From: an uncultured Armatimonadota bacterium
Lineage (GTDB): Bacteria > Armatimonadota > Armatimonadia > Armatimonadales > Armatimonadaceae
Direction: 5' to 3'
Length of the DNA: 42,171 nt
Assembly (NCBI GenBank): GCA_903910385.1
Contig: CAIVZM010000054.1
Location: forward strand, 1 to 42,171
The notes beneath the pieces are model-generated. The model saw only the letters and a program-made list of their open reading frames with translations. It did no database searches and was not told the DNA's origin. Position numbers and translations under genes: made by a program. Of the stretch, positions 156-21,097 are shown in pieces. Each line of letters starts with the position of its first letter. Within the stretch, counting starts at the first letter, position 1.

Positions 156-2684
156 ATGCAGGAAATTTCGTCTCCGCAGGCGAACAGGCATCAAATGTTG
201 ATTGTCCATTGGCGGAGATTTTTATTTATGATCGCCCTTGCTCTTGTCGGGTTAAACGGTGTGGCTGGCGCGGAGGTGGAAAAGCCTATCGTAACGTTGA
301 AGACAAAAAGCGCTATCGTTGCCGTGGGCGCGAACGGGGAACTACAGGGAATCGTTTCCAAAGCTGAGGGCAAGAACTATCTCGCCGATGTCCAGGCGGC
401 GCCCCTATTAAGCGTTCGGTTGGCGGGAAAATGGCGAACTCCGAACAAGGCGGTCTGGGATTCACGCACAAAATCGATAACCCTTGGTTTTGCTGAACCG
501 GAACTGTCCATCGTCATCGCCGCGACCACTAAACCATCCCATATCGTCTTTGAAATCACCTCGGTTCATGCGCCGGATACGGCTGATTTATTCGTCTGGG
601 GACCGTATCCGACCACCATTAACGCCATCATCGGCGAGACAGTCGGGGTCGTTCGCGATGAGAAGTTCGCTATCGGCATTCAATCTCTCAATGCAAAGAC
701 TCTGGGCGGATTTCCTTCCGAAGAAAACGATATTGAGGCGGAATGGTCGGGAAACGATGGCGGGAAATATCCGAATCTTGAGGCGGAACTGCTCAAAGAT
801 CAGCATTACCGGGGAGACACGGCAAGAAAGACCGCGTTTGGAAGCGTCCTTCAGGCATTCTATAGGAATCGCCATCAGCAACGCATCATACCCAACTGGG
901 GACATGAGAAGTATCTTGTCAAGCCGTTCGAGGACGGCGGCCCGGTCGGCAGTAAGATAGCTTTGTTCGGCTGCCCGGCGGATCAGGCGCTGAAAACTAT
1001 CGGCGCCATTGAAGTCGCGGAAAACCTCCCCCATCCCACCATCAATGGCGTCTGGGCTAAAATGTCACCGGAAGCGACAGCCTCGTATCTGATCGTCGAT
1101 TTCAGTGAGGAAAATGTAGACCGCGCGATTGAAATGACTCGCAGAGCAGGATTGAAACATCTGTATCATAGTTCCCCGTTCGAGACCTGGGGACATTTCA
1201 AACTCAAGCCGGAGTTTTTCCCGCACGGTTGGGAAGGCTTTCGCGCCTGTGTCGAAAAGGCGCGAAAGGCGGGAGTTGCGGTAGGATTCCATACCCTTTC
1301 CAACTTCATCACTCCCAATGACCCTTATGTAACCCCGGTTCCGGATCGTAGACTCGCCATAATCGGTTCCAGTGAACTTGCTGGTTCGATTGACAGGAAC
1401 GCGAAAGAGATTCCTATCGTATCGCCGGAATACTTCGCAAAAAAGACGGCGATGAACACGGTCAAAATCGACGATGAACTCATTCGGTATGGCTCTGTTT
1501 CCACTGAAGCGCCCTATCGACTGCTGGAATGCCAAAGAGGCGCCTGGGGAACTGTCGCCACCGATCATGCTCAGGGCGATAAAGTCGGAAAACTGCTTGA
1601 CCATGAGTACAATGTCTTCCTCTCCGATGCCGATTTATCACAGGAGATCGCACGGAATATTGCAGGCTTTCACAATCGAACTGGGGCGCTTCAGCTATCT
1701 TTTGATGGCCTTGAGGGGAACTGGTCGACCGGATACGGGCAGTACGGCAGAACGCTGTTCACCAAAGCCTGGAATGACGCTCTTTCTCCGGAGTTAAAGG
1801 GACGAGTCATTAATGATGCCAGTAATCCGGGGCATTTTAACTGGCATATGAATACCCGTATGAACTGGGGCGAACCCTGGCATGCAGGATTCCGTGAGAG
1901 CCAGACCCTCTACCGATTCAAGAATCAGGTCTACTTCGAGCGGAACTACTTCCCACATATGCTGGGCTGGTTCGCGTTGCGGTCTGAGACGAGCGTCGAA
2001 GATGCGGAATGGTTGCTCGCCCGCGCCGCAGGATTAGACGCCGGATTTACGCTGGCAACGAGCCTTGCCAGTACCGCGCAACTGGCGGCAGATCCGAATT
2101 CGGCGGCGGCGAGCCAGATTTTCGGCGCCACGGGAGAGATTTTGGAGGCAGTAAGCCAATGGGAGACGGCGCGTCAGGCGCGGGCGTTTACGCCGGAAGC
2201 GTGCGCAGCCCTTCGGGACAACCGGAGGGAGTTCCATTTACAACCGGTCAAGAAAAACGTGTGGAATCTGACGGAGGCGCATTTTACGCGCTTTACGCTT
2301 AACGGCAAAGAGAACGTATCCGCTGAATTCAAAGCTGACAATCTCGATGCGCCGCAACCGTTGCAATGGATCGTGCAATCGACCGCCGAGACGCCGATCC
2401 GCGATTTCCAGTTAGCGATAAACGGCATACCTATCGCTGTTGCGGGCAATGTCGCGATTCCTGCGGGTGGCTATATTCGCTATCGCAGCGGCTCTGAAGC
2501 GCTCGTCTGCGATGCTTCCTGGCACGAAGTCGCCCGTATCGCCGTCAACAGCGCAAAAGCGACGCTTCCGACCGGGCAGTATCGCGTCCGCATAGACGCC
2601 TCTTCCTTCACCGGCTCTCTCAAGATAGAATGTCGGACGTATGGAGCGCCCCTTCGTCTCACCGGGAAGGCATCCCGAAAGTAA
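156..2684 (+). CDS. Secreted TIM-barrel glycoside-hydrolase-like protein
   Basis: The product is 842 residues. A hydrophobic segment at about residues 20-38 ends in AGA-E and reads as a signal peptide, so it is probably exported. The start is uncertain: the ATG at 156 follows AAGGA with no spacer, and the in-frame ATG at 195 would give a more normal signal peptide. Residues about 300-620 alternate strand and helix like a (beta/alpha)8 barrel. QRGAWGT (460-466) and a strand ending in SFDGLEG (D517, E520) resemble motifs seen in uncharacterised polysaccharide-degrading barrels. The last ~150 residues look like beta-sandwich. D517 and E520 are candidate catalytic acids by inference only. A decayed copy of the C-terminus lies 0.8 kb downstream. 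The specific activity is unknown. Confidence 0.7.
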   Translation: MQEISSPQANRHQMLIVHWRRFLFMIALALVGLNGVAGAEVEKPIVTLKTKSAIVAVGANGELQGIVSKAEGKNYLADVQAAPLLSVRLAGKWRTPNKAVWDSRTKSITLGFAEPELSIVIAATTKPSHIVFEITSVHAPDTADLFVWGPYPTTINAIIGETVGVVRDEKFAIGIQSLNAKTLGGFPSEENDIEAEWSGNDGGKYPNLEAELLKDQHYRGDTARKTAFGSVLQAFYRNRHQQRIIPNWGHEKYLVKPFEDGGPVGSKIALFGCPADQALKTIGAIEVAENLPHPTINGVWAKMSPEATASYLIVDFSEENVDRAIEMTRRAGLKHLYHSSPFETWGHFKLKPEFFPHGWEGFRACVEKARKAGVAVGFHTLSNFITPNDPYVTPVPDRRLAIIGSSELAGSIDRNAKEIPIVSPEYFAKKTAMNTVKIDDELIRYGSVSTEAPYRLLECQRGAWGTVATDHAQGDKVGKLLDHEYNVFLSDADLSQEIARNIAGFHNRTGALQLSFDGLEGNWSTGYGQYGRTLFTKAWNDALSPELKGRVINDASNPGHFNWHMNTRMNWGEPWHAGFRESQTLYRFKNQVYFERNYFPHMLGWFALRSETSVEDAEWLLARAAGLDAGFTLATSLASTAQLAADPNSAAASQIFGATGEILEAVSQWETARQARAFTPEACAALRDNRREFHLQPVKKNVWNLTEAHFTRFTLNGKENVSAEFKADNLDAPQPLQWIVQSTAETPIRDFQLAINGIPIAVAGNVAIPAGGYIRYRSGSEALVCDASWHEVARIAVNSAKATLPTGQYRVRIDASSFTGSLKIECRTYGAPLRLTGKASRK

Positions 2685-2755
2685 CGTCTCACATCGATCC
2701 GAGCGCAGAGGCTATGTGCGTCGTAGCATCGCGGAGAACCTGAGGTGAAGAAAAA

Positions 2756-3442
2756 ATGAATCAGATCTTTGTGATGAAGAACGTCCCGATTGAAGTAGTT
2801 TGTGCGGAGGTCGCCGCCGCACTGGAAGCGAAGAAGGGGAGGTTAAGCGCACGTGTTCTCGGCATCGAAACTGTTCGCCCGCTGATTGAAAGGGCGTATG
2901 CTGGGGAAAATGTATGTCTCCGCTGGCATTGGATCGTCAGCTATATTCGACGGCAGCGTGGTGTGGTGGTCTCCATCGTCGCCGATGGCGAACGGTTGGG
3001 CATTGTAGTCACTCTGGGCGGTGGTAAAACGCACGGTGTACAAGGGTGGATCCCGATAGACTCCGGAGCCGGTCGCGGGTGCGACGATGCCACCTATGCC
3101 CGATTATATTTCCTGGAAGACGCCCAGCGGGATATACTCCTTGGCAAAATGGAGCGTCAGAGTAGCGTAATATCCCACGCATTCAAGCGGCGGTTTCGCA
3201 AAGCTTCCCCGGCTTCGGACTACCATAATCTGACCGAGGCGGATGACGCCGCTTACCTGAAGCTAGATCGCATGGGTGGCAAAGAGTCACGCATCGTCCG
3301 TTTCTGCTTCCGCAACTGCAAGCTGAGAATCACTGGCTACGCTTACCTACCAACCGATGCATTAGACCGCAAGTTTACGGACAGCGCGGAGGAGGCAGGC
3401 ATCCGTGAGGAAGAGTTGGCCCTACTTTTGCTAACTATATGA
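2756..3442 (+). CDS. Hypothetical protein, 228 aa
   Basis: I do not recognise this protein. It has a good ribosome binding site (AGGTGAA before ATG), coding-like codon use and no signal peptide or membrane segment. The middle (about 75-105) is a strand-rich, glycine-containing stretch (VVSIVADGERLGIVVTLGGG). Residues 140-165 are basic and the C-terminal ~70 residues acidic. It lies 71 bases after the secreted barrel protein and immediately before a decayed fragment of a second copy of that protein. It may therefore sit where an ancestral tandem paralogue was deleted. Function unknown. Confidence 0.7.
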   Translation: MNQIFVMKNVPIEVVCAEVAAALEAKKGRLSARVLGIETVRPLIERAYAGENVCLRWHWIVSYIRRQRGVVVSIVADGERLGIVVTLGGGKTHGVQGWIPIDSGAGRGCDDATYARLYFLEDAQRDILLGKMERQSSVISHAFKRRFRKASPASDYHNLTEADDAAYLKLDRMGGKESRIVRFCFRNCKLRITGYAYLPTDALDRKFTDSAEEAGIREEELALLLLTI

Positions 3443-3529
3443 GATGGAAGTGTAGCTGAGCTGAATCGTAGGTGACCGTAATCATTCGGTTCTCTTCTTC
3501 CTGCGTCATATCTTCGTTCAATATACGTT

Positions 3530-3592
3530 CTCGAAATAGAATGTCTCGCGTTTGGAACGCCGGTTCGCCTCACCGGTAAGACGTCGCAAATT
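3530..3592 (+). pseudogene. Decayed C-terminal fragment of a paralogue of the 156-2684 gene
   Basis: Read in the frame starting at 3530, this gives LEIECLAFGTPVRLTGKTSQ. The last residues of the 156-2684 protein are LKIECRTYGAPLRLTGKASR: 12 of 20 identical and several conservative. Weaker nucleotide similarity extends left to about 3507. Upstream the frame is lost, and the stop codon of the intact gene is not preserved. This is seen directly in the sequence. The reading as a remnant of a deleted tandem duplicate is inference. Confidence 0.65.
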
Positions 3593-3661
3593 ACTCTCTG
3601 CGACGCCTATAGCGGAAGCATATCAACAACAGATGAGTTCGCCCGGAAGACCGGGAACTGG

Positions 3662-4504
3662 TCAGGGGAACTCGCGGTGGGGGCGGATAACGGTGACGCC
3701 GTCAGGTTCGATGATCGGGTGGTTGTAGATATAAGGCGGTTCCAGGACGGCTCGTTGGGCGTCGGTGAGTTCGCTGACCCACTCTGGAAACTGATGGGAG
3801 TAGTAGCCGCCTGCGAAGTGCAGATACTTTGGGGAGAAACGATACATCAGAGTGCGCCGCTGGTGTTGCGCCTTCCAGGGTAGCGTGCCATGCGTGGTCG
3901 CCTCATTAAAAATCAGGAGGTCGCCCGCCTTGCAGGGCACATGAACGATGCAATCCTCGTCGGCGTCGCACTCCAGAATCTCATCAGGACAGCGATAGTT
4001 CGCCTTGTGACTGCCTGGAACGCAGCAAAAGCCTCCGTCGCCGGGGTTAATGTCCGCCAGCTGAAATTGCAGGGAAACCATACCGCAACGCATGACGCCG
4101 TTCTTGAAAATATAATATTGCGATCCGTCGAAATGGTGTCCGGGACCGTGCAGTTTCAGTCCCTCGACGCCCTCCGAAGCGTAGAAAATCACGGGCGCGT
4201 GATCCAGACGCCATCCTCTACCGAGCATCGTATCGAGGAGAGGAATGGCCTTCGGGTGAGCGAGAAGTTCCCGAAACGGTTCACTGTACGGACGTTCCCA
4301 TTCCAGCATTCCGGAAAGGACGCCTCGTTGGGCGTTTCCCTTCAAACGGGAGGAGTTGCCGAGATAGGTTCCTTCCGTATCGGTCATTTTGTCCCCGTTG
4401 GCATCCACAGCGGCGTTGAGACGCGCCACTTCCTCGGAGGACAGGAAGTTCCGTACTACCAGATAACCCTGCACATCGAACAGATATTTTTGCTTTTCCG
4501 TCAT
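3662..4504 (-). CDS. Phytanoyl-CoA dioxygenase (PhyH) family protein
   Basis: A 280-residue Fe(II)/2-oxoglutarate-dependent oxygenase. The iron facial triad is visible: H124-F-D126 (in HHFDG) and distal H205 (in ATTHGTLPW). An arginine pair at 216-217 could bind the 2-oxoglutarate carboxylate. The length is usual for the family and there is no signal peptide, so it is cytoplasmic. The start follows AGGAG at good spacing. It lies 54 bases after the DUF1854 gene on the same strand and may be co-transcribed with it and the ABC exporter. PhyH proteins hydroxylate varied small molecules, so the substrate cannot be read from sequence. Confidence 0.85.
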   Translation of the reverse strand: MTEKQKYLFDVQGYLVVRNFLSSEEVARLNAAVDANGDKMTDTEGTYLGNSSRLKGNAQRGVLSGMLEWERPYSEPFRELLAHPKAIPLLDTMLGRGWRLDHAPVIFYASEGVEGLKLHGPGHHFDGSQYYIFKNGVMRCGMVSLQFQLADINPGDGGFCCVPGSHKANYRCPDEILECDADEDCIVHVPCKAGDLLIFNEATTHGTLPWKAQHQRRTLMYRFSPKYLHFAGGYYSHQFPEWVSELTDAQRAVLEPPYIYNHPIIEPDGVTVIRPHREFP

Positions 4505-4558
4505 TGGTCAATCGCTCCTGAAGCGCCATTTCGGCGAAGAAGAGAAAAATCCCTGCCG

Positions 4559-5101
4559 TTACCAGTAAATGTAGCGGGTCAACTCCTGACGGTCACGATC
4601 CGGCAGGTCGAAGACGTTCGGGATAATGTAGCGGTTGTCGCGAACATCCAGTAGCGCTTTACCGTGCTCGTCATATTCCTCCGCACGGTCGTGACGCCAG
4701 GGAACGATAAACGACTCCCTTCCTCGCTGGGTTTCTGCATCGAAAAAGAGCATATCCTGATCTAACTTGACCCGATAAATCCGTGATATACGCTGTTCGT
4801 AGTAGTGGTGGGCGAGTTTTCGGGAAAGCAGCGCCTGAGTCTCCTCAGAGAATTCCTCCAGATTTTCGATAACGCCGATTTCCCGGTCTTTGTCTTCGTC
4901 GTTGGTGTAGTTCAGAGAAATGAAGTTCTCCGGGTGGCGAATCGGGAACAACCGAACGGCGAAGACGCCACGATAGAGCGTTTTTTCGTCTACGACGCAA
5001 TATAAAAGACCGGAATCGCCCTCATAGATGCGGGCGTTTTCCGGATGCAGTCGGGTGACTCCCGACGCGAAAAGGGTTCTGGATGTTTTTGCTACGCTCA
5101 A
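4559..5101 (-). CDS. DUF1854 family protein
   Basis: A 180-residue soluble protein matching DUF1854, a family often encoded beside a specific ABC exporter and annotated in some bacteria as cyanophycin-metabolism-associated. Recognisable stretches are the central PENFISLNYT and the C-terminal RYIIPNVFDLPDRDRQELTRYI. The start is TTG, overlapping the TGA of the upstream ABC gene as TTGA, which implies translational coupling. The same kind of overlap appears at 29290-29293. No cyanophycin synthetase is present in the window, so a cyanophycin link rests only on family knowledge. Confidence 0.8.
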   Translation of the reverse strand: MSVAKTSRTLFASGVTRLHPENARIYEGDSGLLYCVVDEKTLYRGVFAVRLFPIRHPENFISLNYTNDEDKDREIGVIENLEEFSEETQALLSRKLAHHYYEQRISRIYRVKLDQDMLFFDAETQRGRESFIVPWRHDRAEEYDEHGKALLDVRDNRYIIPNVFDLPDRDRQELTRYIYW

Positions 5102-7374
5102 CCTTCTGTCTCCAATCGAGTCAGTTCCGTCTGGATACGAACGAGACGATGGTAAATGCCTTCCTGCGCCATCAAATCGTCATGCGTTCCGGATTCGGCG
5201 ATGCGTCCCTCATCGACCACATAGATCCAGTCGGCGTTTTTCAAAGTCGAAAGACGGTGCGCAATAGCAATTGTGGTTCTCCCTTTGCACAGGACAGACA
5301 GCGCTTTTTGGATTTCCTGTTCGCTTTCCGTGTCTACGGACGAAGTCGCTTCATCGAGAATAAGTATGCGCGGATCGCAAAGCAGTGCGCGGGCGATACT
5401 GACGCGTTGACGCTCTCCGCCAGATAGCCCCGAACCTTGCTCGCCGAGGCGTGTATCATATGCGCTGGCGCGTTTCGAAATGAAGTTGTGTGCGTTCGCT
5501 GCCTTGGCGGCATCCATGATCTGCATCATGTTGGATTCCGGGCGACCGTAGGCGATATTCTCGGCGATAGTCGCGCTAAAAAGGAAGGGGTCTTGAAGCA
5601 CCAGAGCGACATCGCGATGTAAATCTTCCTGTTTGAGATTCTTGATATTGATGCCGTCGATCAGAACTTCCCCCTGTTGCGCATCGTAGAAACGGCAGAT
5701 CAGGTTGACCAGAGTGGTCTTGCCCGACCCGCTCTTGCCGACGATTCCGACGAATTGACCAGGCTTGATCGAAAAGGTTACCCCTTTGAGAATCGGGACA
5801 TACGGATCATAGCCGAAGACAACGTCGCGGAACTCAATTGACCCTTCGATTCTCGCCAGGGGTACGGCTTCGGGAGATTCACTCACCGATACATTGGCGT
5901 CCAGCACGTCGAAGATGCGTTGCCCGGCGCTGAGGAATCCGGTCATCCAGTTCGAGAAGGAACTGAGAGCGGAAACTGGCCCATAGAACATTCCGACGTA
6001 GGCGAAAAACGCCATCAATGTCCCAAGGCTCATTTGATCGGTGAGTACGAGATGACCGCCTTCGTACCAGATAATCAATCCGCCCAGACCGAACAGGAAT
6101 GACATGATCGGGTTAAATGTCGCGATACTTCTATCCAGCAGGTTACGGTTATCGCGCATATAGCCCGCTGATTTTTCGAACCGCTGATGTTCGCGTTCCT
6201 CCTGACCGAAAGACTTCACCAACCGGATTCCGGAGAGTAGTCCCGACAGTAGCTGCGACATTTTTGACTGGCTGTCCGAAACGCGGTAATAGATCGGATG
6301 GATATACTTCCAGAAATAAATGGTTCCGATGGCGACGAAGGGGAGAGGTACAATGACCAGTAACGCCAGTTTCCAGTTCATGGAAAATAGCGCGAAGCCG
6401 ATTCCTATGACCAGCATCAGGTTCAGGAGAAAGCCCTGCGAAACCTGACTGACAAACCCTTGAAAGTAGTCCACATCCCAGAGAACTCGACTCATCAAAC
6501 TGCCGACGGAATGGCGGTTATAGTAATCGACACTCAGGCTTACCAATTTTTGTTGCAGTTTCTCACGCAACTCGCGTGTGATCCGCGTGCTGATAGAGGA
6601 ACTCAATCTGCCGATAAATACGCTGAGAACATTCCGTAGGGCGGAAGCCGCCATCAGTCCAATGAGGATATAGGGGAGCCACGTCACATTCTGGTGCGGC
6701 ACCAGAACTTTGTCGACTAGCATGCGGGTAAGAAGGGGAGGCACGAGATCCAAACCGACCCCCGCCAGCATCATTCCCAGTAGGACGACCAGCAAACCGA
6801 AATAAGGTCGCATCATTTCGAGGGCGCGGAAGAGGATGCCGTGATCACGATTGCACCGGGCGCACATCACGCCACGACCCGGCAGGGGCAACCCGCACTT
6901 ATCGCACACGAGATCGCTGGGGCGACTTATTGCATCCGACTGAAACGCTTTACCATCGAGGACTCGCTCAAATTGTTGCAGCGCCCGTCCGAATGTCTCC
7001 CGTTTGGCGTTGCTGTAACGAATAACGTCGAAATAAAGACCATGAATGCGTAATTGCAGAAACGATGATCCGACGGTAGGGAAAGTCCGTACCTTTTGAG
7101 CATCCGATAGCGAAAATGGCCCACTGATTTTCTCAAGGGAGCCATCGGCATTTACCTGGACGGCGCCTGCCTCTTTTTCGGTGACGATCATCCAGGAAGT
7201 GCAACCGACTCCCTCCAAATTCAGATCGCTTCGGATGGAAAATACAATCGGCGCATCATTCATTTCCATGACGGTCAGCGCGCCCGTAAGACCCTCGGGC
7301 AATTCTTCGGCATGGATATTTTCTTCGATGCGGAATTTATCGCTATTAGCTACTTCGTCGGTGAGAACAGGCAT
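5098..7374 (-). CDS. ABC transporter, fused permease/ATPase, with N-terminal zinc-ribbon extension
   Basis: A 758-residue exporter half-transporter. The first ~155 residues are a soluble strand-rich domain. They are followed by a zinc-ribbon-like CxxC-N10-CxxC (C157, C160, C171, C174), six membrane helices (about 190-480), and an ATPase domain. The ATPase has Walker A GKSGSGKTT (about 541), signature LSGGERQ (about 648), Walker B ILILDEATSS (about 670) and the H-loop AHRLST. The start is preceded by GGAGG. The next gene (DUF1854) overlaps by four bases. The domain layout matches the ABC transporter that accompanies DUF1854 in other bacteria. It should act as a homodimer in the inner membrane. 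The cargo is unknown; peptide or lipid-like export is plausible. Confidence 0.88.
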   Translation of the reverse strand: MPVLTDEVANSDKFRIEENIHAEELPEGLTGALTVMEMNDAPIVFSIRSDLNLEGVGCTSWMIVTEKEAGAVQVNADGSLEKISGPFSLSDAQKVRTFPTVGSSFLQLRIHGLYFDVIRYSNAKRETFGRALQQFERVLDGKAFQSDAISRPSDLVCDKCGLPLPGRGVMCARCNRDHGILFRALEMMRPYFGLLVVLLGMMLAGVGLDLVPPLLTRMLVDKVLVPHQNVTWLPYILIGLMAASALRNVLSVFIGRLSSSISTRITRELREKLQQKLVSLSVDYYNRHSVGSLMSRVLWDVDYFQGFVSQVSQGFLLNLMLVIGIGFALFSMNWKLALLVIVPLPFVAIGTIYFWKYIHPIYYRVSDSQSKMSQLLSGLLSGIRLVKSFGQEEREHQRFEKSAGYMRDNRNLLDRSIATFNPIMSFLFGLGGLIIWYEGGHLVLTDQMSLGTLMAFFAYVGMFYGPVSALSSFSNWMTGFLSAGQRIFDVLDANVSVSESPEAVPLARIEGSIEFRDVVFGYDPYVPILKGVTFSIKPGQFVGIVGKSGSGKTTLVNLICRFYDAQQGEVLIDGINIKNLKQEDLHRDVALVLQDPFLFSATIAENIAYGRPESNMMQIMDAAKAANAHNFISKRASAYDTRLGEQGSGLSGGERQRVSIARALLCDPRILILDEATSSVDTESEQEIQKALSVLCKGRTTIAIAHRLSTLKNADWIYVVDEGRIAESGTHDDLMAQEGIYHRLVRIQTELTRLETEG

Positions 7375-7630
7375 TTTCTCGCCCTCCGTTTTGGGACAGG
7401 AATCGGAATACTCTCATTTTTCCCTGATTGCTACCTTCCCATGAAATGAAGACCTTCATGAGAAAACACCGAGATCAATATCGGAAAGACTATTCTTGAC
7501 CGTTTGCTTCACCTTTTCTTGGCGTTTAACCTTTCTCTTTGGGGGTAATTCATAAATTATCTGATAAATTTTTCAAATTCAGCCAGTCACGTATCCGAAG
7601 TCTTTTCTGTAGACGACGATTTGAAAGGAG
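7375..7630. other. Divergent intergenic region between ABC exporter and rhaB
   Basis: AT-rich in places with no coding frame seen. A small inverted pair CATGAA/TTCATG lies at about 7441-7464, close to the ABC gene start, and could be an operator. Nothing else is recognisable. Confidence 0.35.
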
Positions 7631-7660
7631 TTGACTATTCATTGCGCCGTTCGGTATCCT
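7631..7660 (+). promoter_or_regulatory. Candidate sigma70 promoter for rhaB
   Basis: TTGACT (7631-7636), an 18-base spacer, then TATCCT (7655-7660). This would give a leader of about 40 bases before the rhaB start at 7707. Identified by eye. Confidence 0.45.
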
Positions 7661-7706
7661 GAATACGCATACCCCAAAAGTGCAGAGATTTACCGGAGAG
7701 GCGACG

Positions 7707-9182
7707 ATGACAAGCAACGGAAAAACAATACGACTACTGGCGTTGGATTTAGGAGCGGAAAGCGGGCGCGGCGTAGTGGGGGCTTTTGATGGCGAACGTC
7801 TCACGCTGGAAGAGGCGCATCGTTTCCCGAATGGCCCTATTCGCATGGGAGATACCATTCACTGGGACTTACCACGACTGGTACAGGAATGCCGTGACGC
7901 GATGCGTAAGGCGGCGGCTTCCGGATCGCTCGCCAGTGTCGGGGTAGATACATGGGGAGTGGATTTCGGTCTTCTGGATGACCGTGGAGCACTGGTCGGT
8001 TTGCCGGTGCATTACCGTGATGCGCGGACGAACGGCATGATCGAAAAGGTCTTCTCTGTGACACCGCAAAGTGAAGTTTACGCTCACACGGGGATACAGA
8101 CGATGCAGATCAACTCTCTGTATCAATTGTCAGCCCTGAAAGAGAAATCGCCCCGTCTGCTGGATGCCGCTGACCGCTTGCTGTTTATGCCAGACCTGTT
8201 CCATTTTTACCTGACAGGTCGCTCCGATGCTGAATACACTATAGCCTCTACCGCCCAGATGTATGATAGCGTCGCCGGAGATTGGGCTCGCGAGATGCTG
8301 GATAAACTCGGTCTGCCGACCCGAATCCTGCCGAATGTCGTCGCTCCAGGAACGATTTACGGCCGCCTCAACGATACCGACGCTACCGCAACCGGAGTGG
8401 GCAAGATTTCCGTCATCGCGCCTGGAGGTCATGACACCGCTTGCGCTGTCGCCGCAGTACCTGCTGAGGGTGATGGGTGGGCGTTTCTCTCTTCGGGCAC
8501 CTGGTCTCTCTTGGGTGTCGAAGTTCCCTCGCCGATCATCAATGCTGAAACCGCCGCCGCCAACCTGACCAACGAAGGGGGGGTAGCCGGAACTATCCGG
8601 CTCCTAAAAAATATTGCTGGGTTGTGGCTGGTGCAGGAATGCCGTCGCGCCTACGCTCGCCTGGGTGATGAACGCAGTTACGACCATCTGGCGCGATTAG
8701 CCGCTGATGCGAAACCGCTTGTCGCCTGTATCGACCCGGATCACCCGTCTCTGCTTGCTCCTGAAGATATGCCCCGCGCTATTCGTGAACTTTGCATCGC
8801 GACCGGTCAAAAACCGCCGGAAGGGATTGGCGCTACCATTCGTTGCTGTCTGGATTCGCTGGGTCTGAAGTACCGCTCTGTACTGGACACACTGGAAAGG
8901 GTGACAGGAAAGCGCATCCATACGCTCCATATCGTCGGTGGTGGGACGCAAAATCGACTGCTGAACCAGATCGCCGCCGACGCGACCGGGCGCGTTGTGA
9001 AAGCCGGTCCGGTGGAAGCCACAGCGATGGGAAATGCGCTCTTGCAGGCGATAGCGCTGGGCGAACTCGCCGGCCTCGCCGATCTCCGCGCCGTAGTTCG
9101 CGCCTCTTTCCCAATTGAGACCTATGAACCTGACCCGGCTATGACCGCACGTTTCGCCGAAATCGCCTCATCCGCATCTTAA
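7707..9182 (+). CDS. rhaB: Rhamnulokinase (FGGY carbohydrate kinase)
   Basis: A 491-residue FGGY kinase expected to phosphorylate L-rhamnulose to L-rhamnulose 1-phosphate. The start is ATG 7707, preceded by GGAGAGG at five bases; an in-frame GTG at 7680 is less likely. Visible features: N-terminal phosphate loop DLGAESGRG (14-22), GVDTWGVDFG (79-88), the catalytic-base motif GGHDTACAV with D243, and a C-terminal nucleotide-binding HIVGGGTQN. The AESGR motif and HDT form are typical of RhaB rather than xylulokinase or glycerol kinase. No rhamnose isomerase or rhamnulose-1-phosphate aldolase lies in the window. It heads a plus-strand run of sugar-related genes. Confidence 0.85.
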   Translation: MTSNGKTIRLLALDLGAESGRGVVGAFDGERLTLEEAHRFPNGPIRMGDTIHWDLPRLVQECRDAMRKAAASGSLASVGVDTWGVDFGLLDDRGALVGLPVHYRDARTNGMIEKVFSVTPQSEVYAHTGIQTMQINSLYQLSALKEKSPRLLDAADRLLFMPDLFHFYLTGRSDAEYTIASTAQMYDSVAGDWAREMLDKLGLPTRILPNVVAPGTIYGRLNDTDATATGVGKISVIAPGGHDTACAVAAVPAEGDGWAFLSSGTWSLLGVEVPSPIINAETAAANLTNEGGVAGTIRLLKNIAGLWLVQECRRAYARLGDERSYDHLARLAADAKPLVACIDPDHPSLLAPEDMPRAIRELCIATGQKPPEGIGATIRCCLDSLGLKYRSVLDTLERVTGKRIHTLHIVGGGTQNRLLNQIAADATGRVVKAGPVEATAMGNALLQAIALGELAGLADLRAVVRASFPIETYEPDPAMTARFAEIASSAS

Positions 9183-9365
9183 TTTCTCCCTTTGGGAAGT
9201 TGTTGATAGTGGTAAAGAAAGCCGGTTCGCGGAGGCGAATCGACGGGACGTTCACATTGCCGTGATGGAATCCATATGGAATCCATTGACCGTAATCGCT
9301 TGTGTTCGATATTTTCAGGGGCGCCGGACGGAGGAAACTTCCTGTACGCTCGTCAATAGTGAGAT

Positions 9366-10655
9366 ATGACAAAGATTGTTATAATCGGCGCGGGAAGTGG
9401 CTTCGGAGCCGAACTTTCTTGCGATATCCTCTCACAACCCGAACTGCGGGATGCTACCATCGCTCTGTGTGATATTCATGAGGGGCGCCTTGCCGCAATC
9501 ACGCGTTATATGCGACGGGTAGTGGAGGCGAATCAACTGGGCGCTACCATTATCAGCAATGTGGATAGACGCGCCTTGCTTGCGGATGCAGATTTCGTCG
9601 TCACCAGTATCTCGGTGGGTGGCGCCGCCTACGCGGGATATCCTCACAATATCGAAGTGGAGATTCCCCAGAAATACGGTATCGAGCAGTCGGTAGCCGA
9701 TACCATAGGGGTCGGCGGTATTTTCCGGTTTCTGCGGACGGCTCCGGTGCAATGGGCGATCTGTCGGGATATGGAAGAGCTTTGTCCTGACGCTCTGCTG
9801 TTGAATTACACCAACCCCATGTGTATGCTGACTTGGTTGCACTCCGAAGGCTCTAAAATCGCCAATGTCGGATTATGTCACTCGATTCAGCACACCTCCA
9901 ACGAGATCTCCGATTATATCGGCATTCCACGCGGCGAACTTTCGTATCTTGCGGCGGGTATCAATCACCAGTGCTGGTATCTTAAACTGAACCATCACGG
10001 TGAGGATGTTTATCCAAAACTCCATGCCGCCCTGAACAACGCGGAGATTGTCGCACGGGACAATATTCGCTTTGAAATGATGAAGCATTTCGGTTATTTT
10101 GTCTCAGAATCGACCGTGCACTGCTCCGAATATCACCCCTATTTCCGTCGAACTCCGGAAATGCTGGAGCAATTCCAGTTGAAGCGCAGGACGGTAGCGG
10201 CAGAGCCCAATTACGACCGCCGCCCCTATCTTTCCGATCCGGAAAATGCTCCGCTTCGCGATTTGACGGTTTCGGTGGAATATGCATCGCAGATTATCCG
10301 CGCCGTAGTCGCCAATGCCCCGTTTCGGTTCTGGGGGAATGTCATCAATCACGGCATGATCGAGAATCTGCCGGACGGTTCCTGTGTCGAAGTTCCCTGT
10401 ATGGTGGATGGGGAAGGGGTGCATCCCTGCCATGTCGGGAAACTGCCGTCGCAACTCGCTCATCTAAATCTGAGCAATATCGCGCCTCAAGAGATGGCGG
10501 TACGCGCCGTTCTGGAAAAGAACCGTGAATACGCTTTTCATGCGGTAGCCCTCGATCCTCTCGCCCGCTCCGTTTGCACACTGGATCAACTACGTGCATT
10601 GTTCGATGAACTCTGGGAGGCGGAGGGGACGTTACTTTCTCACTTCGATCAATAA
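9366..10655 (+). CDS. Glycoside hydrolase family 4 (alpha-galactosidase/alpha-glucosidase type)
   Basis: A 429-residue NAD- and metal-dependent GH4 enzyme. It shows the Rossmann motif GAGSGFG (8-14), NYTNPM (147-152), the metal-site motif CHSI (C171, H172), and GINHQCW (198-204, H201 as second metal ligand). GH4 subfamilies differ at the CHxx motif: CHS(V/I) belongs to alpha-galactosidase-like members, whereas 6-phospho-glucosidases have CN(V/I)P or CDMP. An unphosphorylated alpha-glycoside is therefore the likely substrate. There is no signal peptide. The ribosome binding site is weak (GTGAG). It lies between rhaB and an unknown barrel protein and probably belongs to the same catabolic block. 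Confidence 0.85.
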   Translation: MTKIVIIGAGSGFGAELSCDILSQPELRDATIALCDIHEGRLAAITRYMRRVVEANQLGATIISNVDRRALLADADFVVTSISVGGAAYAGYPHNIEVEIPQKYGIEQSVADTIGVGGIFRFLRTAPVQWAICRDMEELCPDALLLNYTNPMCMLTWLHSEGSKIANVGLCHSIQHTSNEISDYIGIPRGELSYLAAGINHQCWYLKLNHHGEDVYPKLHAALNNAEIVARDNIRFEMMKHFGYFVSESTVHCSEYHPYFRRTPEMLEQFQLKRRTVAAEPNYDRRPYLSDPENAPLRDLTVSVEYASQIIRAVVANAPFRFWGNVINHGMIENLPDGSCVEVPCMVDGEGVHPCHVGKLPSQLAHLNLSNIAPQEMAVRAVLEKNREYAFHAVALDPLARSVCTLDQLRALFDELWEAEGTLLSHFDQ

Positions 10656-14919: not shown

Positions 14920-15777
14920 ATGGAACAACGTTGGGCGGCGATGGAAATCCCCGTGAGCGGGGATGCGCAGGAGATCGTAGGCGCATTACTGACAGAGGCG
15001 GCGGGTTGCTACGGATATACGGCGACTCCGCAGGCAGTGACCGGGTATCTTCCGGTCGATGAGCGGTTGGAGAACACCCTGCTCCGCTTACGAGAAGCGC
15101 TGGATGCGACGCCAGAACTCGGCAGGCCGGGTTCCGCCGAAATTACGATTCGCTTTGTCGCTGAGGAAGACTGGGCGACCGCCTGGAAACAGTATTTCAA
15201 GCCGCAACAGATTGGTGAGCGTATCGTCGTCAAGCCAACGTGGGAAGAATACGCGCCGCGCCCCCGTGATGTCATCATTCATATCGATCCGGGTATGGCT
15301 TTCGGTACGGGATTACATGCTACCACTCGCCTCTGCTTACGGGCGCTGGAGGATTCTGTCACGTCCGGAATGACGGTCGCCGATGTCGGGACAGGCTCCG
15401 GAATTCTGGCGATTGGCGCTATTCTGCTGGGCGCAACCTCCGCCATTGCGACGGACAACGATCCGGTGGCGGTGCGTATCGCTACGGAAAACGTTCAACT
15501 CAATGAGGTTGATGATCGTATTAATGTTCGGGAATCGTCCTTTCCGCCTGCCGGGACGTTCGATATCGTGGTCGCCAATATTCTTGCGGATGTCATTTTG
15601 AATCTTAAGGAAGAACTGGTCAACGCGATCAAGCCTGGCGGTCTGCTTATCGCTTCCGGAATTATTGAGAACCGGGCTGGAAATGTCCGGGACGGATTGA
15701 AGAGCGTCGGTCTTAGCATTGTCGAGACCCGTGAAGAAGGCGAATGGGTAGCCATACTGGCTCGCAAAGTTGGATAA
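14920..15777 (+). CDS. prmA: Ribosomal protein L11 methyltransferase
   Basis: A 285-residue SAM-dependent methyltransferase that trimethylates lysines of ribosomal protein L11. It shows an N-terminal L11-recognition domain (RWAAMEIPVSGDAQEIVGALL), then HIDPGMAFGTGLHATT and the SAM motif VADVGTGSGILAIGA (D155). The catalytic NILADVI replaces the NPPY of other methylases, and IASGII follows. The length fits the family. The ATG at 14920 lacks a clear ribosome binding site; the conserved domain starts within a few residues of it, so it is kept. The gene is monocistronic and faces the M20 amidohydrolase across a hairpin. Confidence 0.9.
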   Translation: MEQRWAAMEIPVSGDAQEIVGALLTEAAGCYGYTATPQAVTGYLPVDERLENTLLRLREALDATPELGRPGSAEITIRFVAEEDWATAWKQYFKPQQIGERIVVKPTWEEYAPRPRDVIIHIDPGMAFGTGLHATTRLCLRALEDSVTSGMTVADVGTGSGILAIGAILLGATSAIATDNDPVAVRIATENVQLNEVDDRINVRESSFPPAGTFDIVVANILADVILNLKEELVNAIKPGGLLIASGIIENRAGNVRDGLKSVGLSIVETREEGEWVAILARKVG

Positions 15778-17363: not shown

Positions 17364-18926
17364 TTGATAGGCATTGAGACGGAATACGGAATTTATGTGG
17401 AGGGCAAAGGGGCGCAAGACCTGGTTGCTGAGGCTACCCATCTTGTCAAACTCTATCCTGGAGTCGCGGCGACCGGTTGGAACTACAAAAATGAGCATCC
17501 ACGCCGCGATATGCGCGGTTTTACCGTAGACCACCTTTCTATTGATCCCACGGACGCGCAATTTGAACAGACGAACCGCCCGCATTCCACGGATGTCGAA
17601 GTGCGCTCGGATCGGGTGCTGACGTCCGGCGCTCGTCTCTACAATGACCATGGTCACCCGGAGTTTTCCACGCCCGAATGCCGTACCCTGCAGGAACTGA
17701 TCGCGCAGGATCGCGCAGGGGAGCGTGTCATGCAACTCTGCGCGGAGAAGCGCATGAGCCGCATGAGCGAAGGCGGATTGGTCGCGCTTTACAAAAACAA
17801 CACCGACTACCATGGAGCAAGCTACGGGACGCACGAATCTTACCTGACCGGACGCGGCGTTCCCTTCGAGGAGTTGCTACAGAGCGTCTTGCCATTCTTC
17901 GTCACGCGCCAGATCATTACTGGGTCGGGAAAAATCGGCATGGAGCAGAGCGGAAGCGGAAGCGAAGCTACCGGCAATTTCTACCAACTGAGCCAGCGCT
18001 CCGACTTCTTTACGACGATTGCCTCCGTCGATACCCTTTACAATCGTCCGATTGTCAATACCCGGGATGAACCGCATACCGATCCCCGGAAATTTCGGCG
18101 TCTGCATGTGATCTGCGGGGATGCCAATCTGTGCGAAACGTCCACGTTTCTGAAAGTGGGAACCACCCTCCTGACGCTCCGACTGCTGGAAGCCGGATGG
18201 CGGGCGAAAGAAATGTCCCTGCGCGATCCGGTGAACGCGATCAAGCAAATCTCCCGCGATGAGAAGCGCAAGTGGATCGTTGACCGTCTGTCTGGCGGGA
18301 CTATCGGCGCGGTGGATATACAGCGCTTCTACCTTGCGGCTGCCAGGGAGCGTTTTACCGGCCTCTCACCGGATACGGATGCCGTCCTTACCGAGTGGGA
18401 ACGCGTCCTCAATGCGCTGGAATCTGACTGGTTATCGCTTGCGGATTCATTGGACTGGGTCGCCAAATACGCGTTGCTCTCCGAGTTCCGTGAAGCGGAA
18501 GGTCTGCCCTGGAATGATTCGACCATGCGTAGCCTCGATCTGGAATACCATAATGTCGATCCTGAAGCGGGGCTTTACTATGGTCTGGAACAGGAAGGGC
18601 GGGTGCGGCGTATTGTCACTGAGGAAGAAATCGTGGCGGCGATGACGACTCCGCCCGCCGCTTCGCCACGACCTGTCGTGCGTGGCATCGCTGTCCGTAA
18701 ATTCGCTCCGTCGGTGTCATCCGTTTCCTGGGGGGAGATGACTTTGAACGAAAATGGGCAATCGCGCGTTGTCCGTATGACCCGTGTGGATGATCTTGAC
18801 CCGACGAAACTGACAGAGACTCTTTCCGCTACCACTACGCCTTCTTCTTTCTTCTCCTCTTTGGAGCAGTTGGAACGGGAGGCGGGAACGGATAAAATAC
18901 CCGTAGACGAAAATGGCGGGGCGTAA
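17364..18926 (+). CDS. dop: Depupylase/deamidase Dop
   Basis: A 520-residue enzyme of the glutamine-synthetase-like Dop/PafA family. It deamidates the C-terminal Gln of the ubiquitin-like tag to Glu and removes the tag from substrates. Visible: the ATP/Mg motif GIETEYG (3-9) and RLYNDHGHPE (91-100) with D95, matching the catalytic Asp of Dop. PafA ligases have a different motif here. Also visible are YGTHESYL, GSGSEATG and RLHVICGDANLCE. The only start before an upstream stop is TTG 17364, preceded by GAGG. It is the first gene of the proteasome cassette. The C-terminal ~60 residues look unstructured and variable. Confidence 0.93.
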   Translation: MIGIETEYGIYVEGKGAQDLVAEATHLVKLYPGVAATGWNYKNEHPRRDMRGFTVDHLSIDPTDAQFEQTNRPHSTDVEVRSDRVLTSGARLYNDHGHPEFSTPECRTLQELIAQDRAGERVMQLCAEKRMSRMSEGGLVALYKNNTDYHGASYGTHESYLTGRGVPFEELLQSVLPFFVTRQIITGSGKIGMEQSGSGSEATGNFYQLSQRSDFFTTIASVDTLYNRPIVNTRDEPHTDPRKFRRLHVICGDANLCETSTFLKVGTTLLTLRLLEAGWRAKEMSLRDPVNAIKQISRDEKRKWIVDRLSGGTIGAVDIQRFYLAAARERFTGLSPDTDAVLTEWERVLNALESDWLSLADSLDWVAKYALLSEFREAEGLPWNDSTMRSLDLEYHNVDPEAGLYYGLEQEGRVRRIVTEEEIVAAMTTPPAASPRPVVRGIAVRKFAPSVSSVSWGEMTLNENGQSRVVRMTRVDDLDPTKLTETLSATTTPSSFFSSLEQLEREAGTDKIPVDENGGA

Positions 18927-18960
18927 TTCATACGAATACGTGAAGAGTAACACCGAGAGG

Positions 18961-18989
18961 GCGAAGTTGGAAAAGATTTTCCCTTTCGC
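18961..18989 (+). promoter_or_regulatory. Hairpin between dop and UBact gene
   Basis: GCGAA...TTCGC enclosing GGAAAA/TTTTCC forms a compact stem with a small internal loop, 37 bases before the UBact start. It may act as an attenuator or mRNA processing site that sets relative levels of tag and Dop. Role inferred. Confidence 0.35.
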
Positions 18990-19025
18990 TTTATATGACG
19001 CCTTTTTTCCAGTGAGGAACTCAGT

Positions 19026-19217
19026 ATGCAAGAAATGAAGTTTGATGACCGTCTGACTCGACCGATGCCGACTTCGGACCCGCTACGGAAGCAGGGAGAC
19101 GGCGACGGTCCCAGCAAGCCCGATGTCAAGCGACCGGAGACTCGCAATATTCTGGATCGCATGAAGCGCGTCGACCCCGATCAGGCAAAGCGCTATCGTC
19201 AGCGTTCCGGTCAGTAA
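19026..19217 (+). CDS. ubact: Prokaryotic ubiquitin-like protein UBact (Pup-like modifier)
   Basis: A 63-residue hydrophilic, probably disordered protein with a good ribosome binding site (GAGG). The pattern is that of UBact, the Pup analogue described in Gram-negative bacteria with proteasomes: acidic Gly/Asp linker GDGDGPSKPDVKRPET, then ILDRMKRVDPDQAKRYRQRSGQ. The terminal Gly-Gln requires deamidation to Glu before ligation; forms ending in Gly-Glu need none. Its position between dop and prcB matches the actinobacterial dop-pup-prcB-prcA order. Actinobacterial Pup usually ends GGQ and is otherwise different, so UBact is the better name. It would be attached to substrate lysines by a PafA-type ligase, which is not seen here. 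Confidence 0.93.
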   Translation: MQEMKFDDRLTRPMPTSDPLRKQGDGDGPSKPDVKRPETRNILDRMKRVDPDQAKRYRQRSGQ

Positions 19218-19265
19218 GGCAGGGCGCGGATTTCCCTCGCTCTGTTTGATTGTAGAAAGGTTGAA

Positions 19266-20105
19266 ATGCTCGATTTGAATAGTGGGCGCGGAGACTTCGC
19301 CGCGCTCCTTGGTAATAACGCGCCCACGAACACGCCGTTTTCTCCGGCTACAATAAACGGAAACGTTTTGTCGTCGAGTGCGATGGCGGGAAACGGACTG
19401 GCGGACACTCATATCCACGGCACTACGGTTATTGCGGTCAAGTATAAAGATGGCGTTATTAATGTCGGTGACCGACGGGCGACCGGCGGTATGGCGATTA
19501 TGTACGACAAAGCGGAAAAGGTGCTTGCCCTTGACGATTATACGTTGATGGCAATTTCCGGCGCTTTTTCCAAAGCGATGGATATTGTTCGCTACCTTCG
19601 ACACGCTTTTAAATACTACGAACGATCCCAACTCCAACCGATGAGCCTTGATGGTAAACTCTCTGAGCTCGGTAAAGTGATTGCCGGAAACCAGATGGCT
19701 GCCATGCAGGGAATCGGTGTCGTGATCCCCGTATTGTCCCTGTTTGACCAGCAGGCGAACGAAGGCCGCATTTTCTTTTATGATGCCGGTGGAGCCCGAT
19801 TCGAGACTGCCGAGTTTGGCGCAGCGGGAAGCGGTTCGACCCAGATTCGCGGCGTTTTTGAGTATATAGCTCGCGAAAAAGGACCGTTCCGTGAAATGGA
19901 CCGGGATACAGCGTTACGTCAGGCTCTCCTTCTGCTCGAAATTGCGGCTGACCTTGATGCCGCGACGGGCGGAGCCGGAAAAATCCTCCCGCTTGCCAAG
20001 ACCATTACGGCGGACGGAATTGAAGATGTCGAGGAATCGACGTTGCGCAGTATGGTTGGGGAAATCCTGAGTAAGGAACCACTGTCGGTCGGCCCGCAAA
20101 GATAA
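19266..20105 (+). CDS. prcB: Proteasome beta subunit (catalytic)
   Basis: A 279-residue N-terminal-nucleophile hydrolase, the proteolytic subunit of the 20S core. A 52-residue propeptide ends at HIHG, and cleavage exposes the catalytic T53 of TTVIAVKYKDGVINVGDRRAT. The conserved GDRR and a lysine in KAEKVLALDD fit the active site. GSGSTQIRGVFE and DLDAATGG are typical of bacterial beta subunits. AAAGGTTGAA precedes the ATG. It begins 48 bases after the UBact gene and is followed four bases later by the alpha-subunit frame, so the genes are surely co-expressed. Confidence 0.95.
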   Translation: MLDLNSGRGDFAALLGNNAPTNTPFSPATINGNVLSSSAMAGNGLADTHIHGTTVIAVKYKDGVINVGDRRATGGMAIMYDKAEKVLALDDYTLMAISGAFSKAMDIVRYLRHAFKYYERSQLQPMSLDGKLSELGKVIAGNQMAAMQGIGVVIPVLSLFDQQANEGRIFFYDAGGARFETAEFGAAGSGSTQIRGVFEYIAREKGPFREMDRDTALRQALLLLEIAADLDAATGGAGKILPLAKTITADGIEDVEESTLRSMVGEILSKEPLSVGPQR

Positions 20106-20199
20106 GACTTTGGGGTATTCCCGTAGCGCTGAGGCGTACTGGAAACTGCTCCGCGTGACAGTGGAAGACCCCAATTGTCCGGTAATGAAGAAAGAAGCT

Positions 20200-21000
20200 A
20201 TGTCGTACAGTTTTTACGATTTCAATAATGCGCTGCAACAGCGTAACGAATACGTCGAAGATCGTCTCAAGGATGGGTCGCCCGTGGTGGCGATCTCCTT
20301 TGACGGCGGCATTCTCCTGCTCACTCTGAAACGCGAGCAACGCAAGGTGTTCGAAGTGTATGACCGTCTGATGATGGGAGTGCTGGGAAAACAGAGCGAT
20401 ATTGAGTCACTGAGGATCGCTGCAATCGAAACGGCGCACAAAGAAGGTTTTGAGCGTTCGCCCGATGATGTCTCGATTCAGCGTTTGGTAGGGTTCTCCC
20501 TTTCTCCGGCGGTGAAGAAAATCTATAACGATCAATCGACGATCCCTCTCACTTTCCGGGCGATTTTCGCGGAAATGGGTTTGAAAGCGGAGAATGATCA
20601 CCTGTTCGTACTCGGGTATGACGGAGAGTTCAAGACCTCGGCAGGCGCCGCTGTCGCTGCGGGAACCGTCTATGCGGAACAGCAGGCGATGGATTTCCTC
20701 AAAGAAGCGAAAATCGAAAATCGCGAAGATGCGCTGCGCGCCGCTCTGACCGCCTGGGGAATCGGACGCGCCCGCCTTAGCGCGAAAAAAGAGTCGGATG
20801 AGGAAGAGTTCAGTCCTCTAGCGGATCGTAGCGAAAACCCGATGCCCTCGAACAGTGATGATCCGGTAGTGGCTTTGAAAGAAGCATTCAAAGACGGTCT
20901 CGTTGTCGAAGCGGGGGTTCTGGAGCGTCGGACTTCCCGAGAGTCGAAGTTCCGTCTCCTGACCACGAAGGACATGGCGAGCGTGTTAGCGGACTATTAA
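20200..21000 (+). CDS. prcA: Proteasome alpha subunit
   Basis: The non-catalytic gate-forming subunit of the 20S proteasome, 266 residues from ATG 20200 (MSYSFYDFNNALQQRNEYV). This start gives an N-terminus like that of actinobacterial PrcA, and AAGAAAGAAG lies in front. An in-frame ATG at 20185 and a TTG at 20110 are less likely. Visible: VVAISFDGGILLLTL, the RKVFEVYDRLMMGVLGKQSDIESLR region, and VLGYDGEFKTSAGAAVAAGT. The C-terminal tail (about 215-266) is acidic and then variable. It closes the cassette directly before a strong terminator. Confidence 0.92.
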   Translation: MSYSFYDFNNALQQRNEYVEDRLKDGSPVVAISFDGGILLLTLKREQRKVFEVYDRLMMGVLGKQSDIESLRIAAIETAHKEGFERSPDDVSIQRLVGFSLSPAVKKIYNDQSTIPLTFRAIFAEMGLKAENDHLFVLGYDGEFKTSAGAAVAAGTVYAEQQAMDFLKEAKIENREDALRAALTAWGIGRARLSAKKESDEEEFSPLADRSENPMPSNSDDPVVALKEAFKDGLVVEAGVLERRTSRESKFRLLTTKDMASVLADY

Positions 21001-21025
21001 ACTTCTGCGGTTGCATTCTATAAAT

Positions 21026-21076
21026 AAAGATGGCGTGAGAAGCGGATAACCGCCATTACTCACGCCATCTTTTTTT
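21026..21076 (+). terminator. Rho-independent terminator after prcA
   Basis: AAAGATGGCGTGAG (21026-21039) pairs perfectly with CTCACGCCATCTTT (21059-21072), with a T-tract to 21076. A small GCGG/CCGC stem nests in the loop. The A-run on the left may also serve the convergent DUF6785 gene. Confidence 0.9.
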
Positions 21077-21097
21077 GTACTGGCTGCGATAAACATC

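Follow-up and report, generated by a model that had tools for sequence, protein, structure and literature searches.

A UBact–proteasome cassette in an Armatimonadaceae genome, its unlinked ligase gene and the probable whereabouts of its unfoldase

Introduction

In the actinobacterial Pup system, the genes follow the order mpa-dop-pup-prcB-prcA-pafA. Related systems built on UBact were described from Gram-negative bacteria by Lehmann et al. (2017, BBRC 483:946), as cited in PMC12751074. The presence of Pup and PafA outside Actinobacteria was reported by Iyer et al. (2008, PMC2588565), and the loci of Plesiocystis and Rhodopirellula covered there are proteasome-free. A 2020 study (PMC7947786) found Dop/PafA homologues beyond Actinobacteria and Nitrospirae to be only very sporadic and noted homologues in Armatimonadetes. 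Our literature search found no paper on UBact in Armatimonadota.

Here, we analyzed a dop-UBact-prcB-prcA cassette in a genome of the family Armatimonadaceae, phylum Armatimonadota (4,465,079 bases, 84 contigs, 95.2% complete). The stretch of DNA that was analyzed, hereafter the window, spans contig C54 from end to end (42,171 bases). The locus shares with the actinobacterial Pup system the Dop/PafA enzymes, a 20S core with a single type each of alpha and beta subunit, the order of the core genes and a Gln-ended tag that needs Dop. It differs from that system in that the tag is UBact rather than Pup, in that PrcA, PrcB, Dop and PafA score below the NCBIfam cut-offs, and in that the ARC ATPases of its relatives lack a GQYL end. 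Compared with the UBact system of Lehmann et al. (2017), the likeness extends to a UBact tag with an R-S-G-[E/Q] end, Dop, PafA, PrcA and PrcB, whereas here pafA is found on a different contig and the assembly lacks ARC. With the Plesiocystis and Rhodopirellula loci (PMC2588565) it has in common PafA-family enzymes and a tag ending in G-[E/Q]; unlike in those loci, 20S genes belong to the cassette.

Results

Composition of the cassette

The following features were identified in the window:

17364 to 18926, plus strand: dop, 520 aa with a TTG start at 17364, depupylase/deamidase type, with the family-conserved residues and the Dop-specific loop
19026 to 19217, plus strand: UBact, a 63-aa Pup-type tag with the C-terminus RQRSGQ (Gln form)
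19266 to 20105, plus strand: prcB, 20S proteasome beta subunit, a 52-residue propeptide followed by the Thr nucleophile (HG/TTVIAV)
about 20200 to 21000, plus strand: prcA, 20S proteasome alpha subunit; the ORF extends back to a TTG at 20110
about 21029 to 21078, plus strand: hairpin resembling an intrinsic terminator, then a T run, found by folding

The original prediction, made from the letters of the window, had named these four genes in this place, strand and order, and profile matches were obtained for each of them. All four point in the same direction and end at the hairpin. The strong terminator that had been predicted to close the cassette was confirmed by folding (about 21029–21075, −34.2 kcal/mol, z −5.6 versus shuffles); a scan for consensus terminators did not pick it up. 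The placement of the cassette outside Actinobacteria was likewise correct.

The first gene product matched PF03136 (6.7e-152) and scored 449 bits against the NCBIfam model for Dop and 352 bits against that for PafA, a margin of 97 bits. A loop of ~40 residues was present in all Dop rows of the alignment and in no PafA row, and the best match among solved structures was the depupylase 5lrt. The enzyme adjoining UBact in the window is thus of the Dop type. The tag exceeded the cut-offs of both PF20513 (3.8e-23) and NF033388 (2.1e-22); in the Pfam/NCBIfam profile search it matched the UBact family only, with no match to the Pup family. The motif YRQRSG was invariant in an alignment of UBact from 18 relatives, whose tags end in SGQ or SGE. 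When named genomes were scanned with the UBact alignment, the matches came almost only from Armatimonadota, with Armatimonadaceae bacterium YX3bin16 among the nearest. Extra or partial tandem copies of UBact were seen in two genomes of the family, G013 (L107:10105-10441) and G071 (C30:12142-12415), and another genome (G129) had three UBact matches at three places.

PrcB matched PF00227 (1.2e-24) and the 20S_bact_beta model (7.8e-47), scoring 159.8 bits against the latter versus 24.4 bits against HslV. Mature 20S beta chains aligned to it from residue 53 on, and T53, D69 and K85 were invariant among relatives. PrcA is a divergent alpha subunit (PF00227, 1.8e-6; 20S_bact_alpha, 1.1e-17); a profile of 11 PrcA relatives matched actinobacterial PrcA structures at 7.6e-18, and the pocket lysine (K79 of the listed ORF) is conserved and aligned to those structures. 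The start of prcA is probably the ATG at 20200, as relatives begin at the corresponding residue, which would place the listed TTG at 20110 90 bases too early. HslV or Anbu in place of a 20S core was ruled out by the presence of both alpha and beta subunits.

Surroundings of the cassette and the ligase gene

The neighbors of the cassette (prmA, an M20-type amidohydrolase, a membrane protein, a Y-family polymerase and a fucose synthase) showed no evident tie to proteolysis, and no tRNAs were found in the window. The original prediction had also stated that neither a PafA-type ligase nor an Mpa/ARC-type unfoldase lay within 17 kb to the left or 21 kb to the right, which held for the entire contig: the Pup-ligase model found no PafA there, and no Mpa/ARC was found there either. 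The two distances are set by the ends of C54, where the assembly stops.

Across the whole genome, the Pup-ligase model detected exactly two genes, dop on C54 and a second gene on contig C67:

C67, 3185 to 4660: pafA, 491 aa without the Dop loop, a typical PafA

Its product is 85–88% identical to the PafA of three family relatives (G013, G071 and G086). In a fourth, G106, the orthologue stands directly 3' of prcA, inside the cluster. That G106 copy (L104:12400-13820), at the end of an otherwise complete cluster, is split into several frames, reflecting either a sequencing error or a damaged gene. PafA of Armatimonadota (L002:1417-2889) carries an insertion of ~30 residues before FQLSQRAD, which is absent from Dop and interrupts the alignment to solved actinobacterial PafA structures.

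Gene order across the phylum

In most of the relatives examined that had enough flanking sequence, outside Fimbriimonadales-like groups, the genes ARC-dop-UBact-prcB-prcA-pafA stood in one row. The complete six-gene cluster was present in G106, G041, G052, G118, G003 and G022, among others. In G013 and G071, which belong to the same family as the genome studied here, ARC, the cassette and pafA occupy three unlinked places, and in several further lineages ARC lies apart from dop. Since the cluster is broken in several lineages, its separation has happened repeatedly in the phylum and gives no sign of different partners. In a Dop tree, the split seen here could be neither tied to that of G013/G071 nor set apart from it. 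In the window, prmA (14920–15777) is 1.6 kb away from the cassette, and in G013 (L109:6890-7717) a distance of 2.2 kb separates it from the lone pafA; this may be a remnant of a single ancestral cluster. The seeming absence of prcBA from G013 was rejected, as antisense ORFs had been miscalled and tblastn showed both genes.

A second, divergent pupylation-like operon was observed at L230:850-7822 (minus strand) and L231:about 2000-9500 (minus strand), with no proteasome genes in the stretch covered. It encodes two Pup-ligase family proteins with a small ORF between them that ends in SKQRGGQ (L230) or STRQQGGE (L231), as well as a small ORF that is possibly ubiquitin-like, a weakly matching JAB-like protein and an ARC-like AAA protein with an OB domain. 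In genome G007, this operon occurs alongside a UBact system.

The unfoldase and its absence from the assembly

We searched the 95.2% complete assembly for Mpa/ARC with an OB-domain model, a proteasome-ATPase model and, at the protein level, the ARC of a relative, and none of these searches found it. The top matches of the proteasome-ATPase model in the genome were FtsH and other AAA proteins. In genomes of the phylum, ARC scores about 400–470 bits when whole. The genome-wide profile search proposed along with the original prediction thus located the ligase and returned no Mpa/ARC.

The meaning of this absence was assessed in a sample of 251 Armatimonadota genomes. UBact was detected in 137 of them, and 132 of these 137 also had ARC. 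Taking the probability of missing a gene as 1 minus completeness, we expected incompleteness to produce 6.4 UBact genomes without ARC and observed five. For UBact genomes that were at least 90% complete, 3.8 absences were expected and two were observed, one of them being the genome studied here. In four members of the family (G013, G071, G086 and G106), ARC is adjoined by a divergent LuxC-type reductase gene, and this gene was also not found in the present genome. Because a single gap would remove both, their joint absence makes an assembly gap the simplest account. An attempt to place the gap by synteny gave no result: the LuxC, APH-like and atpD neighbors of ARC in G013 and G071 have no orthologous neighborhood here, and no contig end could be matched to the gap. 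We infer that ARC is present in the organism and that its gene most likely lies in an assembly gap rather than having been lost.

True loss of ARC, with UBact and the 20S core run by another AAA ATPase, would also fit its absence from an assembly of this completeness. Candidates of this kind would be a Cdc48-like protein or the TPR-AAA protein P0001 on C50, which fits the ARC model best among the non-FtsH AAA proteins of the genome. P0001, however, occurs throughout the order (19 of 19 genomes) and stands alongside ARC where ARC exists, which argues against replacement; it was rejected as a substitute on these grounds. It also has TPR-like repeats (below Pfam cut-offs) where ARC has OB domains, and it lacks an HbYX end. 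Together with a count of ARC-less UBact genomes no higher than incompleteness predicts, these points make a substitute ATPase improbable. Proteins of the P0001 type (L004:919-2199, C50) are nearest to CDC48/FtsH-type AAA modules. A separate AAA protein encoded beside dop in L138 was discarded as a proteasomal ATPase, being ClpA/ClpB-like with an ankyrin-like start and matching only weakly.

A decaying system, in which the loss of ARC leaves UBact tagging or the 20S core working but uncoupled from degradation, or in which the genes are relics, would be in keeping with the failure to find ARC and with the distance between the cassette and pafA. Against this, dop, UBact, prcB, prcA and pafA are all intact and free of frameshifts in this genome, they keep their conserved residues and are highly identical to those of relatives, and the terminator is preserved; we consider decay very improbable. 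Finally, the core could be served by a Bpa/PafE-type cap, which needs no ATP and works with the 20S cores of Actinobacteria (PMC12288473). The Bpa family (PF10759), however, exceeded its cut-off in 0 of the 251 Armatimonadota genomes and had no match whatever in the genome studied here, which leaves hardly any room for this explanation.

The reading we favor over these three is that the organism very probably has the ARC ATPase, and nothing in the data forces an unusual partner. The original prediction had held that the system must be split or use different partners: the split is borne out by pafA on C67, but different partners are not, given ARC in 132 of the 137 UBact genomes.

The C-terminal tail of Armatimonadota ARC

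An HbYX-type C-terminus had been suggested as the mark by which the AAA partner could be recognized. No such end was found among the AAA proteins of this genome with a readable end. One AAA protein of the genome ends in SRYIL, which we take to resemble the HslU tail. We also read the C-termini of 53 distinct Armatimonadota ARC proteins (L059-L077, L101-L136 and L139-L206). These have OB domains and an AAA domain as in proteasomal ATPases and align to mycobacterial Mpa across 465 residues. An aromatic residue at position −2, corresponding to the tyrosine of GQYL/HbYX, was present in none of the 53. Position −2 was Ile or Val in every case (53/53), position −1 was Ile, Val or Met in 52, and position −4 was Arg or Lys in 36. 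The commonest final triplets were NII, GVI, SVI, NVI and GII. As the ARC proteins of relatives lack HbYX, selecting for this motif would miss a true partner.

In mycobacteria, the GQYL end of the ATPase is required for core opening (PMC12288473). We tentatively suggest, at slightly less than even odds, that Armatimonadota ARC uses a conserved, tyrosine-less [VI]-[IV] tail (often R/K-N-I-I or G-V-I) to dock on the 20S core and open it, while PrcA retains the lysine pocket expected to receive such a tail. This tail would resemble the short, hydrophobic C-terminus of HslU more than the GQYL/HbYX ends of actinobacterial, archaeal and eukaryotic caps.

Discussion

We conclude, with a probability of roughly 0.86, that the cassette represents the part of an ordinary UBact (Pup-type) conjugation and 20S proteasome system that processes the tag and forms the core particle, with pafA on C67 and ARC likely in an assembly gap, and that these genes probably once formed one cluster. 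By analogy with the known pathway, Dop would deamidate the Gln-ended UBact to Glu, and PafA would link it via this Glu to lysines of substrates. A ring of the Mpa/ARC-type AAA ATPase would then bind the tag, unfold the substrate and feed it into the PrcA/PrcB barrel, inside which the N-terminal Thr of PrcB would cut; Dop may also be able to take the tag off. The ancestral cluster was probably ARC-dop-UBact-prcB-prcA-pafA and would have been separated later by rearrangement in this lineage.

The cassette is real but largely expected, being a common gene set in Armatimonadota. The original prediction had noted that the surrounding genes point to a Gram-negative-type phylum; this setting is not unusual, UBact having been described from Gram-negative bacteria already in 2017, according to the citation in PMC12751074. 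The finding of UBact–proteasome systems in 137 of 251 genomes makes them widespread in Armatimonadota, compared with the sporadic Dop/PafA homologues of PMC7947786, and several lineages of this phylum no longer have the six-gene cluster in one piece. If the tyrosine-less tail of ARC is indeed its docking element, ATPase rings would have a second means of engaging bacterial 20S cores.
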